Below, piece after piece: positions 374-12,815 of a stretch of DNA of 12,815 bases (positions within the stretch are counted from its first letter, which is position 1; each line of letters opens with the position of its first letter). A program made the position numbers and the translations under genes. Under the pieces are notes generated by a model. That model searched no databases, was not told the origin of the DNA, and was given only the letters and a program-made list of their open reading frames with translations. The stretch comes from Chitinophagaceae bacterium (GTDB lineage: Bacteria; Bacteroidota; Bacteroidia; Chitinophagales; Chitinophagaceae), in NCBI GenBank assembly GCA_947463755.1, contig CANHUK010000012.1, forward strand, positions 1 to 12,815. The letters run 5' to 3'.

Positions 374-1411
374 ATGGAACATATCTCCCGCCGGAAACAG
401 CATTTTGCGGTGAGTCCGGCGTTCATGAAATTCCTCGCCAGGCACGGCCGGACCATCCCCCTGCCCGTGACTTACCAGATGTTGCGCGGGTATCAGGACG
501 CCATCACCCTGTATGACAAGGAAGGCCGGGACACCTACTGGGAAACCGTCTTCTTCCCACCCTCCCTGACCGAAGAGATCCACCGCGGACTCAAACGCAC
601 CTACTCCATCCTCAAGGCCAGCGGGTACACACAGGCGGAGGAACACCTGCAGATCGAACGGATAGACTACTGTGTCTTCGGAAATTCGAAACCCTTCCGC
701 ATCAAGATCGTCAACACCTACAACGAGGTACACGACTATTTCTACTTCAAGATCGCGGACGCCTCCCGCATCTGGGGGCTCGAACTGGAACATCTGCTGT
801 CGCCCTACCGCATCAACTACCTGGTCGATGGACAGACCCTCATCGAAGAACACATCTCCGGCATCCCGGGCGATGTGTTCAGCCAGCGGTACATGGACCG
901 GCCGGAATTCAACCCCAGACGCATCGCCAAGGAGTTTGTAAAATTCAACGAAAGATGTTTCATGCGCCTGCTGGGCGATATGCGCAGCTACAACTTCGTG
1001 TTCGATATCACCCAGGATTTTGACGACATCCAGTTCCGCATCCGGGCGATCGACTTCGACCAGCAATCCTATGAAGGAAGAAAGAACATCTACCTGCCAC
1101 AATTCTTCAAGGAAAACCAGTCCTTTGTAAAGGAAGTCATGTCACGCCTTCATCCCGACGTGATCAAACAATACCAGATGGAAGAGCGATCCCTGTTCCA
1201 TCGCAGGGTGCGCGCCGAATACTACCGGCTGAGCGACCTCCAGCGCACCCTCACCAAAGAACCATTGTCCCTGCCGGAAAAGATAGCATCCCTGCGGGAA
1301 GAGCTGGCCGCATACCACGGACAGTCCAACTTCGTCAAATGTACCACCATGCCCCAGATCCTCCACCTGCACATCAAATGCTTCGTCCGGATGGATCTCC
1401 GGAAAGCTTGA
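374..1411 (+). CDS. Uncharacterised protein with a kinase-like core, first gene of the MlaEF cluster
   Basis: A 345-residue protein with no signal peptide or membrane segment; I do not recognise a named family. Its middle third reads like a divergent protein-kinase/aminoglycoside-phosphotransferase (APH) fold. FYFKIA offers a beta-3 lysine (K126), GLELEHLL an alpha-C glutamate (E137 or E139), and LIEEHISGIPGD a hinge (about 156-167). GDMRSYNF (201-208) gives the Asp-x4-Asn spacing of the catalytic loop (D202, N207), and AIDFDQQSY (225-233) gives the metal-binding Asp (D227). The IDFD form recalls small-molecule and lipopolysaccharide sugar kinases. About 110 residues flank the core on each side and are unassigned. 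The ATG at 374 follows the 286-352 hairpin; ATG 425 is an alternative start. The stop is 39 bases before mlaE, so the genes are probably co-transcribed. The CDS is fairly secure; the kinase reading is my inference. Confidence 0.75.
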   Translation: MEHISRRKQHFAVSPAFMKFLARHGRTIPLPVTYQMLRGYQDAITLYDKEGRDTYWETVFFPPSLTEEIHRGLKRTYSILKASGYTQAEEHLQIERIDYCVFGNSKPFRIKIVNTYNEVHDYFYFKIADASRIWGLELEHLLSPYRINYLVDGQTLIEEHISGIPGDVFSQRYMDRPEFNPRRIAKEFVKFNERCFMRLLGDMRSYNFVFDITQDFDDIQFRIRAIDFDQQSYEGRKNIYLPQFFKENQSFVKEVMSRLHPDVIKQYQMEERSLFHRRVRAEYYRLSDLQRTLTKEPLSLPEKIASLREELAAYHGQSNFVKCTTMPQILHLHIKCFVRMDLRKA

Positions 1412-3315: not shown

Positions 3316-3768
3316 ATGCTGAAACACACAATCAGTCGCCCCCTCGGGCTGTTGCGACCCCGGATCTTCGACGAGTTCATGATGCCATGGAACGAACTGA
3401 CGGGAGACGGAGACCTCTTCCCCGAATGGCGTACCACACTGCCCGCCGTGAACATCGCGGAAGACGAGAACAGTTATCTCCTTTCCCTCGCCGCGCCCGG
3501 CATGAAGAAAGATGATTTCCGGATCGATCTCGAAGGAGACACACTGACGATCCATGCGGAAAAAGAACGCGAGCAGGAAGATGGGGCCAGGAGATTTACC
3601 CGTCGCGAATACGAATACCAATCTTTCTCGCGGAGCTTCACGCTGCCGGATGGTATCGACCGCGATAAGATCGATGCGCGCTACGAGAATGGGGTATTGA
3701 TGCTAACACTCTCCAAGAAAGAGGAAGCCAGAAAGAAAAACCCGGTGAAGGCCATTACCGTCAAATGA
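3316..3768 (+). CDS. hsp20: Small heat shock protein (Hsp20/alpha-crystallin family)
   Basis: A 150-residue cytoplasmic chaperone that holds unfolding proteins without using ATP and forms oligomers. The alpha-crystallin domain runs from about 43 to 134: LPAVNIAEDENSY, LAAPGMKKDDFRIDLEGDTL, and the hallmark A-x3-N-G-V-L in ARYENGVLML (121-130). The C-terminal I-x-V anchor is ITV (147-149), near the end of the protein. Length and domain order are normal for the family. The ATG at 3316 lies 39 bases after a perfect -7 box, so it probably has its own promoter. A long hairpin follows the stop. Confidence 0.95.
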   Translation: MLKHTISRPLGLLRPRIFDEFMMPWNELTGDGDLFPEWRTTLPAVNIAEDENSYLLSLAAPGMKKDDFRIDLEGDTLTIHAEKEREQEDGARRFTRREYEYQSFSRSFTLPDGIDRDKIDARYENGVLMLTLSKKEEARKKNPVKAITVK

Positions 3769-3877: not shown

Positions 3878-4468
3878 ATGAAAAAACACATCCTGGCCGT
3901 AGCAGTACTCCTGCTGTCCAGCCACCTGCACGCGCAGACAAGGTTCGGCCTCAAAGCCGGCCTCAATTTTGCCCACATCAGCGCCAATGAATCGGCGATC
4001 ACGGATTACGACAAAGTCAGGCCCACATTTCAGGCGGGACTACTCACCGACTTCTCCGCCGGAGCGCATTTCAGCTTCCAGCCGCAGGTCGTCATCCAGG
4101 GAAAAGGCACCAAGATCAAGTACGACTCAGCGGATACCCTCTACCGATTTCTTTCACTCGACATTCCCCTGAACCTGCTCTACAAGTCGGATGGCTTCTT
4201 CGTCGGCGGAGGGCCCAACCTGGGTTTCAATCTGGATGCCAACTACAAGCAGAACGGCAACGTGACGGATATCGGCATCGGCAACGGCGACTCAGAATTC
4301 AAGCGATTCGACTTCGGCCTGCACTTCATGGCCGGATATGAATCGGAAGCCGGATTTATTATCGGTTTGAATTACCTCAGAGGCGTGAGCAACCTACGGA
4401 ATTCTTCAAACCATGATTGGAGAAACCATGTCTTCTCCGTAAGCGTAGGCTACCTGTTCGGCGACTGA
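3878..4468 (+). CDS. PorT-family outer membrane beta-barrel protein
   Basis: A 196-residue exported protein. A signal peptide is clear (MKK, hydrophobic LAVAVLLLSS, cleavage likely after A19 in LHAQ). The mature part shows alternating hydrophobic/polar strands with glycine and aromatic residues (FGLKAGLNFA, GAHFSFQPQVVIQG, SLDIPLNLLYK, GFFVGGGPNLGF, FDFGLHFMAGYE, FIIGLNYLRG, HVFSVSVGYLF). This is the pattern of small 8-strand barrels annotated as PorT-like or outer-membrane-beta-barrel in Bacteroidota. Proteins of this group have varied and mostly unknown roles, so membership does not imply a part in type IX secretion. No promoter consensus is seen in the 110 bases before it; it could be read through from hsp20. 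It ends at a T-rich terminator. Confidence 0.85.
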   Translation: MKKHILAVAVLLLSSHLHAQTRFGLKAGLNFAHISANESAITDYDKVRPTFQAGLLTDFSAGAHFSFQPQVVIQGKGTKIKYDSADTLYRFLSLDIPLNLLYKSDGFFVGGGPNLGFNLDANYKQNGNVTDIGIGNGDSEFKRFDFGLHFMAGYESEAGFIIGLNYLRGVSNLRNSSNHDWRNHVFSVSVGYLFGD

Positions 4469-4673: not shown

Positions 4674-5333
4674 TCAGGAAGCCGGCTGGCCGGCGACCGA
4701 GGATACATAATGCGGGATACCCGAACTGGCGGCATAAGGGATGCGACCATCGCCATCGGCAAAGGGCCGTAGCTGGCCGTCGGTATTCATCAACTGATGC
4801 AGGTGCAGGGCCTTGAACTCAGAAGCCGAGAGACCGGTCGTCTTCCGGAACTGGTTCGAAAGATGCGCGACACTGCTGTAGTTCAGCATCGTCGCGATCT
4901 CCGTCAGATTCAGCCCGCTGTGCAGAAGCAGCTTCTTGACCTTTTCAATGCGCTTGTTGATGATGAATTGCCGGAGGCTGATCTTGTTGTGCTCTGAAAA
5001 GATGTTGGAGAGATAATTGTAGTTCAGATTCAGCTTGTCGCTCAGATACACCGAGATCTTCAGGTTCGGCCGATTTTCCCAGTTGTTCACCATCTCGGTA
5101 ACGACATGGGATATCCGCTGCACCAGGATCCGCTGATGGTCGTACACCAGCTCGTAACCCTGCTTGAGCATACTGGCACCCAGATGCGAGATACGATGAG
5201 GGTTTTCGTGATCGTGCAATTCAATACATCCATTCTCGACCTTGTAATTGTTGAATCTGTGCGCGTGCAATAAATCGCTGACGGCCTTCTCTCCATCCTT
5301 GCCGTTCATGTTGTTGACAGGAATTCTGATCAT
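4674..5333 (-). CDS. AraC-family regulator with an HMA-like N-terminal domain lacking the metal cysteines
   Basis: A 219-residue DNA-binding protein. The C-terminal half (about 91-175) is an AraC-type double helix-turn-helix. Its first helix pair is near YLSDKLNLNYNYLSNIFSEH and its second is near LTEIATMLNYSSVAHLSNQF, closing with TGLSASEFK. Bacteroidota carry a family with this DNA-binding half fused to a small ferredoxin-like domain resembling heavy-metal-associated (HMA) domains, usually with M-x-C-x-x-C in the first loop. Here residues 1-65 keep the strand-helix pattern, but that loop reads MNGKDG (9-14), with glycine in place of both cysteines. The only cysteine in this part is C36. A tail of about 45 residues after the DNA-binding domain is unassigned. 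Start ATG 5333 preserves the first strand (MIRIPVNNM). The target genes and signal are unknown. Confidence 0.85.
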   Translation of the reverse strand: MIRIPVNNMNGKDGEKAVSDLLHAHRFNNYKVENGCIELHDHENPHRISHLGASMLKQGYELVYDHQRILVQRISHVVTEMVNNWENRPNLKISVYLSDKLNLNYNYLSNIFSEHNKISLRQFIINKRIEKVKKLLLHSGLNLTEIATMLNYSSVAHLSNQFRKTTGLSASEFKALHLHQLMNTDGQLRPFADGDGRIPYAASSGIPHYVSSVAGQPAS

Positions 5334-5663: not shown

Positions 5664-6461
5664 TCAGTTGTAATTGCAAACCGATCGCTTGAACTCGGAT
5701 GCTGACAACCCCGTAATCTTCCGGAACTGTGCAGAAAGGTGGGCGACACTGCTGTAATCCATCTGGTTGGCGATCTGTGTCAATGAATGCCGATCTTCCT
5801 GGATCATCGTCTTGACCCGGTCGATCTTCCTGATGATCACATACTGGCTCAGATTGATCCGCATCTCTTTCTTGAACTGAAGTGACAACTGATGATAGGA
5901 CAAGCCGATCTGCCGGCTAAGGAAATCAGAGAGGTTCTCCTGACGCAGAGAAAAGGGGGATGAAAGAACTTCTTCTATGAGGCGGCATGTCACCGTAATC
6001 GGTTCAGACATGTAGACGGCAGGCGGGTTGGTAAAATCCCGGCGCATAACATCTATCAATCGACTGATGATCGAACGACTCATCGGCATGCCACCGGAGA
6101 GGGCAAGTATCAGGTTTGCCCTGAACTCATCATACGTCGAATTTTTTACGATGTAACCGCCGGCCCCGGCAACGAATGCCTGGCGTATCAATGCATCAGT
6201 CTCCTGTTGACTACAGGCGATGACGCTGACCGCCGTATTTTCACTCAATGTGCGAATGAATGAGAAGATCTCCTCCGACGCTCCGGCTTCGAGGTCGATG
6301 ATCACCACATCCGTAGGCTTCGTCAATAGTGTGTGGGCACGTTCAAGGTCCTGAAACACAGCATCGAGTACATATCCATCTATGCTGGCAATCATCCGGG
6401 TCAACAGCGTCCTGTACAACGCATTGCCCTCTAAGATCGAGATGATGGTCTTCTTTTGCAT
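5664..6461 (-). CDS. Receiver-AraC fusion response regulator
   Basis: A 265-residue protein from ATG 6461. Residues 1-125 form a CheY-like receiver. IIDLEA carries the phospho-acceptor Asp (D56), VIACS gives the switch Ser (S84), and GYIVKNS gives the conserved Lys (K106). The N-terminal acidic pair is incomplete: ISILEGN has Glu (E11) and then Gly. Residues about 153-260 are an AraC double helix-turn-helix, ending SSVAHLSAQFRKITGLSASEFK, very like the neighbouring regulator. The fusion of a receiver to an AraC output domain is known in Bacteroidota. The frame extends upstream to 6572, but the added 37 residues look non-coding and the receiver's first strand begins right after M1. No histidine kinase is nearby, so its partner, if any, is elsewhere. 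Confidence 0.88.
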   Translation of the reverse strand: MQKKTIISILEGNALYRTLLTRMIASIDGYVLDAVFQDLERAHTLLTKPTDVVIIDLEAGASEEIFSFIRTLSENTAVSVIACSQQETDALIRQAFVAGAGGYIVKNSTYDEFRANLILALSGGMPMSRSIISRLIDVMRRDFTNPPAVYMSEPITVTCRLIEEVLSSPFSLRQENLSDFLSRQIGLSYHQLSLQFKKEMRINLSQYVIIRKIDRVKTMIQEDRHSLTQIANQMDYSSVAHLSAQFRKITGLSASEFKRSVCNYN

Positions 6462-6830
6462 GTCAAAGGCTTTGGTCAATTCAGGCAGTTTAATGGTTTT
6501 TTCTAATAGATATCCATCGATACGGATACCACAAAAGAAGACAGGGACGAAGCACAGGCAACGTCCTAACATTCAAAATTGACCAAACAGGAGCTGAGGG
6601 GCGGAAACCAGACGGCACTGCATTGAGCACGTTATGTACGTAGACTTCAATAACGCATTTATGCCTTAATTATTGCCACGCCAATAACAGCCAAATTTCC
6701 TGAACGATCTCTGTCGGTCCCATTTGGCAGATCAGATCAAAACTGTAAAAATCCTGGTGGTTGAGGGGCAACCCTCCTGTCAAATCTTCGGCAATTTTAC
6801 ACACCCCCAAGCTTATAGAGAATTCAAACA

Positions 6831-7038: not shown

Positions 7039-7120
7039 ATGCATGGGAAGGGCCATGAAGCCCCCATCGCCTTCGTCCAGGGGTTCGCAGAAGACATCAG
7101 CGGATATCCCCTGTTTTTAC

Positions 7121-7128
7121 TACCTTTG
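7121..7128 (+). promoter_or_regulatory. Bacteroidota -7 promoter element for sucD
   Basis: TACCTTTG, a perfect TAnnTTTG match 25 bases before the ATG at 7154, leaving a leader of about 20 bases. A clear -33 element is not seen. The box falls inside the longer open frame that begins at 7043, which argues for the downstream start. Confidence 0.65.
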
Positions 7129-7153
7129 TGCCTCGAAACAAATCTCACCAAAG

Positions 7154-8026
7154 ATGTCGGTACTTGTCAATAAACAGTCGAAGGTTCTTGTTCAGGGCTT
7201 CACGGGTACGGAGGGCACTTTCCACGCCTCGCAGATGATCGAATACGGCACCAATGTGGTCGGTGGTGTCACCCCCGGCAAGGGCGGAAGCATGCATCTC
7301 GACCGGCCCGTTTTCAACACGGTGGCAGAAGCTGTGAAGGCGACAGGTGCTGATGTGAGCATCATTTTTGTACCTCCGGCATTTGCCGGAGATGCCATTT
7401 GCGAAGCTGCTGAGGCAGGCATCGCCCTGGTGGTCTGCATCACCGAGGGTATCCCTGTACAGGATATGGTCAAGGCCAAGAACTATCTGCAAGGCCGCAA
7501 GACCCGCCTGATCGGTCCGAATTGTCCCGGCGTCATCACTGCCGGCGAATGTAAGGTCGGCATCATGCCCGGCTTCATTTTCAAACAAGGCAATATCGGC
7601 ATCGTGTCCAAGTCAGGCACCCTTACCTACGAAGCAGCCGACCAGATCGTGAAAGCAGGTATGGGCATCACGACGGCCATTGGCATTGGTGGTGACCCGA
7701 TCATCGGCACGACCACCCGCGAAGCTGTCGAACTGTTCATGAACGACCCCGCCACAGAAGGCATCGTGATGATCGGTGAGATCGGTGGGGGCATGGAAGC
7801 CGAAGCCGCCCGATGGATCAAGGAAAACTCGACCAAACCTGTCGTAGGCTTCATCGCCGGACAGACCGCCCCTCCCGGCCGCCGCATGGGCCATGCCGGC
7901 GCCATCATCGGCGGATCGGAAGATACGGCAGAAGCCAAAATGAGGATCATGCGCGAATGCGGGATCCTTGTGGTGGACAGCCCCGCCGACATCGGCAAGA
8001 CGATGGCTGCCGCCATGAAATCCTGA
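7154..8026 (+). CDS. sucD: Succinyl-CoA synthetase (succinate-CoA ligase) alpha subunit
   Basis: A 290-residue TCA-cycle enzyme subunit that, with SucC, interconverts succinyl-CoA and succinate with ADP or GDP phosphorylation. The CoA-binding Rossmann half begins [14 protein letters not shown] (11-24). GGVTPGKGG (37-45), GPNCPGVI (121-128) and [13 protein letters not shown] (149-161) are conserved. The phosphorylated active-site histidine is H247 in [13 protein letters not shown]. Length is normal for the family. The frame is open from 7043, but the promoter box at 7121-7128 and the homologous N-terminus [11 protein letters not shown] favour ATG 7154. SucC is not adjacent, so sucD is a single-gene unit with its own promoter and a strong terminator. 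The two subunits being encoded apart is plausible for Bacteroidota. Confidence 0.97.
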
Positions 8027-8199: not shown

Positions 8200-11100
8200 A
8201 TGAAACGAATCATCGCACTCATCTGTGCCGTATTCCTGCTGAATTCGCTACAGGCCCAGCCTTCCGCCCGCTTCTATGCCTCGGCCTGGAAACAGGTGGA
8301 TGCCCTGGACAAGGCAAACCTGCCCGCTTCGGCCGCTGAAGCGGTGTCGCGCATCCTCCAGCGCGCCCGGCGAGACGCGAACCTGGCCCAGGAGCTCAAG
8401 GCCATTTTTCACCTGGGCAGCTACCTGCAGACGCGAGGGGAGGATGCCATCCTCACCCATGCAGACACCCTGACGGTTTACCTCAGGGGGGCTACGGGCA
8501 TCCGCAAAGCACTGCTGCACAGCATGCGCGCATCCGCATTGTCCGAATACCTCGCCGAACAGCGATGGAGGCTCTATAACCGGTCAGAAACCCTGGAACG
8601 TTCTGAAGATATCCGGACATGGTCTGCCACCGACCTGCATCGTCAGATCGCGGCCGACCACCTCGCCGCTCTGTCTGAGCGCGCAAAACTCAGCACATCC
8701 TCCACCGCCGGACTTTCCGCCGCACTGATCGCCGGAGATCTTATCAAACGCAGACCCACCCTGTACGACCTCGTGGTGCATGCCGCGCTGGATCACTTCA
8801 CCCGCGACGAACGCGATATCAACCGATTCGCCGGCGGCTTTGAACTCAACGATCCCCTCCTCTTCGCCCCGGCACCGGTCTTTACAAAGCTACCCGTCCC
8901 TGCCACCGACAGCCTCTCCCTGGAGCTAAAGGCCATCCGACTCTTTCAGGAAGCGCTGGCATGGCATCTGAACGACAGAGCACCGGAGGCTGTGATCGAC
9001 CTGGACCTGCGACGCCTGGCATTCGTACACGACCGGTCTGTGGACCCCGACCGGGATCAGCAATACGCCGCCGCGCTCAAAGAACTGGCAGATAGATACG
9101 CGAAAGATCCGGCCTCCGCACAGGCCCAATATCTCAAAGCTGCCCTCGACCACCGACTGGCAGAAGGATCACTGAAGGCCGGCAGACCAGACCGACAAGC
9201 CCTGCGTAACATCGAGGCAGAATGCAACCGCATCATCGCGCGCCACCCCGGCAGCGAAGGCGCGCTGAATGCCGCCATCCTGCTCGAATCCCTGCGCAAA
9301 CCGGAACTCAACCTGCAGGTCGAACTGATGAACATCCCCGGGCACGACTTCCGATGCAGGGTTGCCTATCGCAACCTGCAGTCGATCCACTACCGCATCA
9401 TCCCCCTGTCCGACAGCCTGACAAATGTGTTGACCGGCCTGTCGGGCAATGATCACTGGAAACGCCTGGCATCTCTCCCCGCCGTCCGCAGCGAATCTCA
9501 GGTCCTGCCATCCTTCGATGATCTCCGCTCACATGCTGTGGAGATCCGCATCCGAGCACTGCCTGAGGGACGATACCTCGTCCTCGCATCTGCCGATCCC
9601 GCCTTCCAGCCCGGACGTCAGCCGATGGCTGCCAACGGATTCCATATCACACGCATCGCCTGGATCAACCGCGGCAACGACTACTTTGTACTCGACCGGG
9701 AAAGCGGTACCCCGCTGCATGACGCGAAAGTGCGCATCTGGCAAACACAGTATGGATATGGTGAAAGAAGGCCCCTGCTCCGGCTTGAAGACTCCGTCAG
9801 GACCGACCTGAACGGTCATTTCCTCATGCCTCCGCCAGATATGCATGCCTGGGGTGGCCGTCGGCTCGAAGTGGAATGGCGGGGCGACCGTGTTTTCCCC
9901 GACGCCAGGGATCACGCGGAATGGCCCGATGACAGACCCTGGATCAATGACCGGGAGGAATACGAACGACGCTACCGGCGCCTTTTCCTGTTCACCGACC
10001 GCAGCATTTACCGGCCGGGACAGACGGTGCATTTCAAGGGATTACTCGTCAGTCGCGACCCGGATACCCGCCGGCCAAAGATCGTGGAAGGATGGGAACG
10101 GATGCTGAAACTGACGAATGCCAATGGCGAAGAGATCGATTCGATCGTACTTCGGACCGGTGTGTACGGCAGCTTTCACGGCAGCTTCCGGTTGCCGGAA
10201 CGCGGACTGACCGGTACGTTCAGGATCGCTGACCGGGATCTGGGCAGTATCAGTATCCAGGTCGAAGAATACAAGCGGCCAACCTTTGAGGTCACCTGGA
10301 CATCAACACAGGATGAATACAAGGTGTATGATACCGTGAAGGCCACAGGGATCGCTACCTCCTACGCCGGGGCCGCCCTCAATGGTGCCCGAGTGAAGTA
10401 TCGCGTGGAACGTATCGCCCGATTCCCTTACCCCTGGCGCTGGCATTATTTCGGATGGGGAGAACCACCGGCCGGCGCCATGGAGATCTCCCACGGAACA
10501 GCCACTACGGATGAAAATGGCATATTTGACATACGCTTTGCCGCCGTGCCGGACAAGAAGATCGATCCTTCCCTCCTGCCGGTATTCGAATATCGCATCA
10601 CCGCCGATGTCACCGACCTCAACGGCGAAACCCGCTCCGGCGATCGGACGTTGCCGGTCGGCTATCACAGTCTGAACCTGGAGATCGTAACCGGCAATGG
10701 CGGAGATCCCACGAATGCAGCGGATGCGCCCATCACGCTAAAGGCATCGAATCTGGAAGGTCTGCCCCGGATGGTGAAGGCAACCCTCGAACTGCGACCC
10801 CTAAGATCGCCGCAACGGCTGATCCGGCCCAGGCTTTGGGCAGCACCGGACACTTTCCTGATGTCCGAAACGGATTATATCAGGTACTTCCCCTTCGATG
10901 AATATGCCCGGGAGGCACAACCCGAAACCTGGGCCACCGGACCTGTCCTATTCCGTTCCGTCGATTCGCTGCGTGATGGCCGTTCGGATGTGCGTCTACC
11001 CCTGAAAGCTATCAAGGCCGGCTGGTATCGCATCATGCTAACGGCCACGGATAAACGCGGAATGCCGGTCACGGCACAACGTGATATCCGGGTGACGGAT

Positions 11101-12815
11101 GCACAGACCGGACAGGCAGGTGCCGCCTGGCTGACGGTACATACCAACCGGGAAACTGCGCAGCCCGGCGACCGCATCCGTGTGACCTTATCGACCGCCG
11201 ACAGCGGGCTGCATCTGATCCAGCTGCTCGACGGATACCAGGGCCAGGTGGAAGATACCCGCCCCGAAAGCGGGCGCAAGACCCCGCAACGGATGAGCGT
11301 ACCAGAAGGTCCGGGCGGTCCCTTCCGCTTTCCGGAACTGGGCACTACGCCGGCAAGCTTCGTCATTCCGGTCACGGATGCCGACCGGGGTGGGTTTGCC
11401 GTGAGCCACGCCTTTGTGCGACAGAACCGGATGTATAGTTTCGAAACGCTGATCGAGGTGCCCTGGAGCGACCGGGAACTGGATATTCAGACGGAAACAT
11501 GGCGGGACCGCACCCTGCCGGGCAGCGCCGAGGAATGGACCGTAAAGGTTCGCGGCAGCAAGGGGGAAGCCGTAGCGGCGGAGATGCTGATGTCCATGTA
11601 CGATGCCTCACTGGATCAATTCCGGGGGCATGCGTGGCAAAAACCTGAACTATTCGAAGTCTGGCCGGCACGCTTTGACCGGTACCTGAAAAAGCCCTGG
11701 AATTCGCATCATTTCCGGAGTTCGGACGGGCGAACCCTCGATGCGATCGTTCGGTCGCTGCCCCGCTTCAACGGAAGATACCAACGCTTCGTCTGGGCGG
11801 ACGGGCTCCAGCGCATGCGTGACCAGTTCAATGCCTTTGAAGCCAGGGGCGGGCGGGTCATGAAGATGCAGCGGGCCATGGAAGACATGGCGCCGATGGC
11901 GGCCGCCCCTCCGCCGGATGGTGCAAGCCCGGACACCGCCATGATGCTCAACGAGACAGTGGTCGTCAGCAAAGGCACAGCCGCAAAAAAGGGACCTTCC
12001 TTCCCCATGCAGATCCGCAAAGACTTCCGCGAGACGGCCTTCTTCCTCCCCGATCTGAAAACGGACAGCCTCGGGAACATCCGCTTTCGATTCACCATGC
12101 CGGAGGCGCTGACCCGATGGAAATGGCAGATGCTGGCGCACACAAAAGATCTGTCGATGGCCACGGCCACTCGGACGGTCATCACACAAAAAGACCTGAT
12201 GGTTCAAGCCAACACGCCGCGATTCCTGCGGGAAGGCGACATGCTCTCCCTGCCTGCGAAGGTCACCAATCTTACAGATGCCGAACTGTCCGGCCAACTG
12301 ACCCTCGAGATCATCGATGCAGAAACGGGCACTTCGGTTGACGGATACTTCCATAATGTTTTTCCGGTCCAGTATTTCACCGCCGCCGCCAGGCAATCCA
12401 CTGCCGTACCATTTACGCTCCGCGTACCGGGCAATTTCAACAAGCCGGTCACCTTCCGGATCTCCGCGCGCGCGGGCAGGCATACAGACGGCGAAGAACG
12501 CACGGTACCGGTACTGACGGATCGGATACTCGTGACCGAATCCATGCCCCTGCGCTTCAAAGGCACCGGATCGAAAACCTTCCGATTCGGAAAGCTGGCC
12601 GAGGCCGACGCATCCGCATCGCTCACCCATCATCGGTTGACGGCGGAATGGTCCACCAACCCCTCATGGTATGCAGTAGAATCCCTTCCCTATCTCACGA
12701 CCTATCCCTACGATTGTGCCGAACAATCCTTCAATAAATTCTATGCGAATGCCATGGCGCAACGCATTGTGCGCACATCCCCGGCCATCAGGGCATGGCA
12801 CGAAAGGATGATGAC
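8200..12815 (+). CDS. Large alpha-2-macroglobulin family protein (partial, 3' end outside window)
   Basis: The frame is open from ATG 8200 to the window edge (1538 codons). A signal peptide is clear (MKRIIALICAVFLLNSLQAQ) and there is no lipobox Cys at the cleavage site. Residues about 25-365 are helical and partly TPR-like. From about 370 beta-rich macroglobulin domains follow, including the MG2 hallmark TDRSIYRPGQTVHFKG (599-614) and VEEYKRPTFEV (688-698). A low-complexity stretch around 1218-1267, rich in Met, Ala and Pro, fits the protease bait region. The A2M core motif RKDFRETAFFLPDL comes next, and the thioester motif is C1506-A-E-Q1509 (tgt at 12715-12717). In known members a cut in the bait triggers the thioester to trap the protease. 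This protein is likely periplasmic or surface-exposed, protecting the envelope. About 30 residues follow the thioester before the edge, so the thioester-domain rest and C-terminal domains are missing. No promoter consensus was found in 8090-8199. Confidence 0.93.
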   Translation, partial: MKRIIALICAVFLLNSLQAQPSARFYASAWKQVDALDKANLPASAAEAVSRILQRARRDANLAQELKAIFHLGSYLQTRGEDAILTHADTLTVYLRGATGIRKALLHSMRASALSEYLAEQRWRLYNRSETLERSEDIRTWSATDLHRQIAADHLAALSERAKLSTSSTAGLSAALIAGDLIKRRPTLYDLVVHAALDHFTRDERDINRFAGGFELNDPLLFAPAPVFTKLPVPATDSLSLELKAIRLFQEALAWHLNDRAPEAVIDLDLRRLAFVHDRSVDPDRDQQYAAALKELADRYAKDPASAQAQYLKAALDHRLAEGSLKAGRPDRQALRNIEAECNRIIARHPGSEGALNAAILLESLRKPELNLQVELMNIPGHDFRCRVAYRNLQSIHYRIIPLSDSLTNVLTGLSGNDHWKRLASLPAVRSESQVLPSFDDLRSHAVEIRIRALPEGRYLVLASADPAFQPGRQPMAANGFHITRIAWINRGNDYFVLDRESGTPLHDAKVRIWQTQYGYGERRPLLRLEDSVRTDLNGHFLMPPPDMHAWGGRRLEVEWRGDRVFPDARDHAEWPDDRPWINDREEYERRYRRLFLFTDRSIYRPGQTVHFKGLLVSRDPDTRRPKIVEGWERMLKLTNANGEEIDSIVLRTGVYGSFHGSFRLPERGLTGTFRIADRDLGSISIQVEEYKRPTFEVTWTSTQDEYKVYDTVKATGIATSYAGAALNGARVKYRVERIARFPYPWRWHYFGWGEPPAGAMEISHGTATTDENGIFDIRFAAVPDKKIDPSLLPVFEYRITADVTDLNGETRSGDRTLPVGYHSLNLEIVTGNGGDPTNAADAPITLKASNLEGLPRMVKATLELRPLRSPQRLIRPRLWAAPDTFLMSETDYIRYFPFDEYAREAQPETWATGPVLFRSVDSLRDGRSDVRLPLKAIKAGWYRIMLTATDKRGMPVTAQRDIRVTDAQTGQAGAAWLTVHTNRETAQPGDRIRVTLSTADSGLHLIQLLDGYQGQVEDTRPESGRKTPQRMSVPEGPGGPFRFPELGTTPASFVIPVTDADRGGFAVSHAFVRQNRMYSFETLIEVPWSDRELDIQTETWRDRTLPGSAEEWTVKVRGSKGEAVAAEMLMSMYDASLDQFRGHAWQKPELFEVWPARFDRYLKKPWNSHHFRSSDGRTLDAIVRSLPRFNGRYQRFVWADGLQRMRDQFNAFEARGGRVMKMQRAMEDMAPMAAAPPPDGASPDTAMMLNETVVVSKGTAAKKGPSFPMQIRKDFRETAFFLPDLKTDSLGNIRFRFTMPEALTRWKWQMLAHTKDLSMATATRTVITQKDLMVQANTPRFLREGDMLSLPAKVTNLTDAELSGQLTLEIIDAETGTSVDGYFHNVFPVQYFTAAARQSTAVPFTLRVPGNFNKPVTFRISARAGRHTDGEERTVPVLTDRILVTESMPLRFKGTGSKTFRFGKLAEADASASLTHHRLTAEWSTNPSWYAVESLPYLTTYPYDCAEQSFNKFYANAMAQRIVRTSPAIRAWHERMM

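Follow-up and report, generated by a model that had tools for sequence, protein, structure and literature searches.

A stand-alone kinase-like protein family of Bacteroidota and Verrucomicrobiota with a probable PI3/4-kinase-type fold

The gene and its conserved active site

The DNA analysed here (the window) is a stretch of 12,815 nucleotides from a Chitinophagaceae bacterium (assembly GCA_947463755.1, contig CANHUK010000012.1), in which an open reading frame on the plus strand at 374-1411 (P0001) lies between genes of the malic enzyme MaeB and the lipid transporter component MlaE. It encodes 345 amino acids plus stop, with the coordinates, strand and length given in an earlier note on this DNA, which had read the product as a kinase-like protein of unknown family linked to Mla-type transport. 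Homologues and predicted models place it in a family with a probable PI3/4-kinase-type fold, and the following parts, all on the plus strand, were recognized. An N-terminal extension of about residues 15-89 (416..640), modelled as a helix (15-23), a beta hairpin (42-47/53-60) and a second helix (63-82), ranks with the less conserved parts of the protein. By model and alignment it is followed by the N-lobe strands 92-100, 108-114 and 119-127 with a GNSxPFR turn and K126 (647..754), by K126-x2-D129-x2-R132 together with helix 130-142 carrying E137 and E139 (749..799), and by the hinge LIEEHISGIPGD (residues 156-167; 839..874). N104, P107 and R109 of the GNSxPFR turn, which we infer from the model to occupy the place of a nucleotide loop, are present in 350/350 sequences, as are hinge residues E158, H160, G163, P165 and G166. 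The catalytic loop LLGDMRSYN (199-207; 968..994), with D202 and N207 in 350/350, and the metal site AIDFDQQ (225-231; 1046..1066), with D227, F228, D229 and Q230 in 350/350, precede the C-lobe helices 246-344 (1109..1405), which the models show and which fall inside the range aligned to PI3/4-kinase domains.

The residues named in the earlier note stand where it had put them, and those whose loss among homologues would have spoken against it (K126, D202, N207 and D227) are conserved: K126, E139, D202, N207 and D227 occur in all 350 sequences and E137 in 348 (230/230 and 229/230 respectively in a smaller alignment), both alignments counting the protein of the window itself and some redundant rows. 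Fourteen positions do not vary at all in the 350 sequences (K126, D129, R132, E139, E158, H160, G201, D202, M203, N207, D227, F228, D229 and Q230), of which those at 201-207 and 224-231, like the conservation at 186-192, are partly built in and thus inflated because rows were partly chosen by motif: 80 rows (L031-L110) were picked with the patterns R[ASP]IDFDQQ and KEFVKFN, the reading frame of 29 rows was set by a motif regular expression (all 29 loci yielded one), and the protein matches have short exact words in common. K126, D129, R132 and E139 are absent from the selection patterns. By a rough yardstick, under which 52 of the 345 columns reach 99.5% in the 230-row alignment, the invariance of all five chosen positions would be well above chance. 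Variation is greatest in the last 70 and the first 46 residues.

Predicted fold and family identity

Structure prediction gave a confident bilobal kinase model, and the canonical motif order proposed in the earlier note was recovered in space: K126 closes strand 119-127, E137/E139 lie within helix 130-142, the hinge is at the end of strand 155-159, D202/N207 fall between helix 181-197 and strand 208-214, and D227 comes directly after strand 219-225. Structural-neighbour rows held kinases only. Under VIA structural re-alignment, moreover, 50 of the 50 entries shown were PI3/4K/PIKK for each of two separately predicted models, with alignments to PI3/4-kinase domains that span the whole core; the highest rows belong to the PI3/PI4-kinase group (VPS34, PI4KIIIbeta, p110, mTOR, ATM/Tel1 and SMG1; PF00454). 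The model supports membership in the kinase-like (PKL) superfamily, with a bilobal fold, a predicted ATP site between the lobes, beta-3 Lys, helix-C acid, catalytic Asp, Asn at +5 and metal Asp. The earlier call of a kinase holds on the confident bilobal model, the invariant catalytic residues and the kinase-only structural rows, and structural re-alignment points to a PI3/4-kinase-like subtype.

At the motif level, FK126-I-A-D129-A-S-R132, LGD202-M-R-S-Y-N207 and AID227-F-D229 of the family can be set beside FKVGDDLRQD, GVGDRHLDN and HADFG of yeast VPS34: the K/+3 D/+6 R arrangement, GD-x-[RH]-x2-N and the D-F spacing are kept in 350/350 sequences, and residue 204 (Arg in 336) is His in 14 of 350, as in VPS34. 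On the other hand, the family protein, at just 345 amino acids, is unlike PI3/PI4-kinases in its lack of a PF00454 match, and its spacings differ from those of yeast VPS34, both from D202 to D227 (25 residues vs 18) and from K to D (76 vs 107).

Sequence searches gave the family no name. The kinase protein had no Pfam or NCBIfam match (Pfam at E up to 1, where none of the PF00454, PF07804 and PF01636 profiles matched). A Pfam scan of 17 family members at E up to 10 returned ten families, each in a single member (E 0.012 to 0.27), among which ABC1 alone (0.19) is kinase-like. Searching PDB sequences with the single protein and two family alignments (A1 and A2) yielded chance matches only and no relative. 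PADLOC gave no match, and a defence gene was rejected on that ground. Moreover, no open-access paper naming the family was found, as judged by title or abstract start. Novel kinase-like families predicted by model and motif, one of them near PI3K families, have been described for Legionella and include putative effectors (PMC9758233). The present family resembles them, by that description, in being unnamed and found by model and motif, and is unlike them in being chromosomal, mostly single copy and spread over Bacteroidota and Verrucomicrobiota.

Distribution and gene neighbourhood

At least 8000 clustered homologues were found from the window protein, and at least 8000 likewise from a Cerasicoccus copy; among the 120 homologues listed for each search the named sources read 'hypothetical' or 'uncharacterized', and a precomputed Pfam domain was present in one of the 240 (PF13453, in the longer protein P0342). 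When 296 phylum genomes were searched with a profile (E up to 1), the matches showed a sharp edge: they lay at or below 4e-110, and past that came a few at noise level, from 0.05 to 0.5. The sole remnant past this edge is a broken kinase gene in two pieces with stops (G249:C1:3158145-3158410). The gene was found in 80/296 phylum genomes, 68/198 class genomes and 10/40 near relatives, the last including the window's genome and 6/24 other genomes of its genus, mostly as a single copy per genome (two in G091); the window's phylum and class are taken, on the strength of named relatives, to be Bacteroidota and Bacteroidia. Verrucomicrobiota copies comprise L102, L106 and L108, plus more from the Cerasicoccus-copy search. 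A tree of the 80 named loci and the window mostly tracks genera and families, with the three rows from Verrucomicrobiota grouping together (92/84) inside Bacteroidota; its root was placed for drawing only. The phage and plasmid collections searched gave no tblastn match to the kinase, and cargo of either kind was rejected.

The earlier note had seen no partner other than mlaE nearby, which is incomplete: a same-strand gene ends at 280, 93 bp upstream, and its piece in the window carries a PTA_PTB domain (6e-24) matching the end of malic enzyme-phosphotransacetylase, here called MaeB; its full-length counterpart at L031 has malic, Malic_M and PTA_PTB domains. If MlaE starts at ATG 1451, the stated distance of 39 bases to mlaE is correct. 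The downstream MlaE matches PF02405 (3e-63), with TIGR00056 below the NCBIfam cut-off, and for the ABC ATPase that follows the MlaF model is one of many ABC matches, all those shown being below cut-off.

Among the 80 named loci (flanks up to 10 kb, less on short contigs), MlaE is directly downstream on the same strand in 13 (L031-L043), and MlaF follows in 12 of these, L031 ending before it; in L038 both are in pieces. All 13 are labelled as Chitinophagaceae genera or family, except L031, which is labelled only 'Chitinophagia', and 10 of them have a member of the L031 MaeB cluster close to the kinase. None of the other 67 loci has MlaE, including L047, L057 and L099, also labelled Chitinophagaceae. 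Further whole-genome copies with 1.5 kb flanks, seven of the 29 from the window's own family, gave MlaE in 0/29 and MaeB in 1/29, the latter being L002 (same family), where MaeB adjoins the kinase and no MlaE lies within 1.5 kb. At one junction (L173, genome G313) the kinase and MlaE share one open frame of 573 codons, which may be an assembly error.

Within the window's genus, where many genomes are incomplete drafts, 22 genomes have MlaE at 72% identity or more, all 22 with MaeB upstream and MlaF downstream; the kinase gene stands between MaeB and MlaE in six (the window's included) and is absent there in 16, where MaeB and MlaE are 11-74 bp apart, most often (11 genomes) 14 bp. G311, one of these 16, carries a more distant copy of the kinase at another site. 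Thus the kinase is optional in the maeB-mlaE-mlaF array. Outside the MlaE-bearing loci its neighbours differ from group to group, and no conserved neighbour reaching across families was found among the 80 named loci or among 118 loci (78 named and 40 unnamed; open reading frames of at least 80 amino acids within ~6.5 kb). A cluster that had joined MlaF with genes of the unnamed family f5 was set aside, since the f5 gene at L201 resembles by eye the ATPase of an ABC-2 type transporter, with an ABC-2-like permease next to it, rather than MlaF. MlaE is present in all 25 genomes of kinase-bearing loci (in pieces in two). The neighbourhood survey that the earlier note had proposed therefore confines MlaE adjacency to part of one family; as a general feature the Mla link is rejected, since neither adjacency to mlaEF nor co-occurrence with it is conserved, although in Chitinophagaceae the position of the gene may yet reflect co-expression.

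Between maeB and the kinase gene lies an inverted repeat with 29-nt arms (286-352); the RNA fold of 278-376 has -51.2 kcal/mol (z -6.1). A long hairpin with other arm letters, judged from folds, occupies the same place in L172 and L173, and none was seen by eye in L174-L176. No second strong copy of the repeat was found in its own genome (60% complete), no T run follows the hairpin, and its three Rfam matches are all far below the gathering score. Further along, domain matches identify Hsp20 (3316-3768), an outer-membrane barrel (3878-4468) and a CoA-binding/CoA-ligase protein (7043-8026); two AraC-type regulators, one with a receiver domain, lie on the minus strand (4674-5333 and 5664-6572). 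A very long open reading frame (8200-12813), open at the window end, may encode an alpha-2-macroglobulin-type protein, which it resembles by eye (YPYDCAEQ).

Proposed activity and competing explanations

The gene product is probably a stand-alone, catalytically active kinase whose fold is of the PI3/4-kinase type; its unnamed family of bacterial proteins belongs to the kinase-like superfamily. From the roles such residues have in kinases and PI3-kinases, ATP would sit between the two lobes, its phosphates gripped by K126, itself held by the helix-C acid (E137/E139); D202 with N207 and D227, perhaps also D229, would position the substrate hydroxyl and metal ions, with R/H204 at the place of the His in the PI3-kinase Asp-Arg-His. 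The protein, presumably cytosolic, would pass the gamma-phosphate of ATP to a single fixed acceptor, for which a lipid head group or a small molecule is a likelier candidate than a range of proteins. Because the gene is chromosomal, mostly single copy, has no constant partner and gave no match in the phage and plasmid collections searched, and because its active site is the same in both phyla, it appears more like a metabolic or lipid kinase devoted to one acceptor than like an effector, a gene for defence or a protein kinase of broad range.

Several observations weigh against this interpretation. The acceptor is a guess from conservation and single copy, and activity itself is a prediction. 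The acid at K+8 of VPS34 is unmatched (W134), as is the Gly of DFG, where the family has DFD; PF00454 is absent from the scan of 17 members, and a PF00454 search of the class genomes gave 0/198. Moreover, VIA and Foldseek disagree on the closest fold: by Foldseek E-value ethanolamine kinase 2qg7 leads, ranks 1-28 are taken up by it together with protein kinases, pseudokinases and Pan2:Pan3, and VPS34 comes at rank 29 (1.2e-3), with low TM scores (TMq 0.21-0.41), while VIA re-ranks the first 1000 Foldseek chains, treats rows within 1 Z as tied and draws on a PDB in which PI3-kinases are abundant. Comparison by hhalign (profiles of 22 APH and 26 HipA regions, 30 loci fetched each, and 120 VPS34 proteins) gave 0.3% for VPS34, its reversed-profile control being higher (1.6-1.7%), and 3.4-3.8% for APH (P 0.011-0.013; reversed control 0.2-0.3%), at a power that is low, as APH vs HipA (0.5), PI3K vs HipA (1.8) and PI3K vs APH (3.1) illustrate. 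The Foldseek order and the APH match could suit a generic superfamily member on the APH/choline-kinase or HipA side, the PI3/4K ranking then reflecting aligner weighting of long helical C-lobes and a PI3-kinase-rich PDB. APH/choline kinases (PF01636) share the GD-x4-N catalytic loop, on which the best, weak profile match falls; HipA (PF07804) is bacterial and has the D-x4-N loop, where its hhalign alignment lies, but scores 0.1, no better than its reversed control (0.2), and the loci examined show no conserved neighbour and hence no sign of a HipB-like partner. Neither family has a Pfam match here; HipA structures are not among the rows shown by VIA or Foldseek, nor APH structures among those of VIA, which excludes neither. 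We consider such a generic kinase unlikely, as both models gave PI3/4K/PIKK entries throughout, with core-wide ranges, even though most of the Foldseek rows shown for the full model are protein kinases.

A pseudokinase, binding ATP or a metabolite without phosphate transfer, would agree with D229 at the Gly of DFG in 350/350 sequences, but pseudokinases usually lose one of the catalytic residues, and here none of K126, the helix-C acid, D202, N207 and D227 varies, so that this explanation seems quite improbable. Least credible is a dedicated Mla part that phosphorylates a lipid or MlaF/MlaE: the 13 adjacent loci suggest it, but it is opposed by the 67 others, the 29 whole-genome copies, the 16 kinase-free arrays and the presence of MlaE in 285/296 phylum genomes vs 80/296 for the kinase, and we give it very little weight.

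For the preferred PI3/4-kinase-type kinase, there is a minor chance that the likeness reflects descent, that is, a true prokaryotic branch of native bacterial kinases acting on a lipid or inositol-type head group in many Bacteroidota, with Verrucomicrobiota sharing it, related to the ancestor of PI3K, PI4K, mTOR and ATM. If that homology is true, the family would offer a small bacterial protein for studying the origin of a group central to eukaryotic signalling, and would point to a phosphorylated compound awaiting discovery in genera such as Chitinophaga, Pedobacter and Hymenobacter. Thousands of clustered homologues (at least 8000) with an invariant active site and no match in the family searches above represent a large annotation gap in Bacteroidota.
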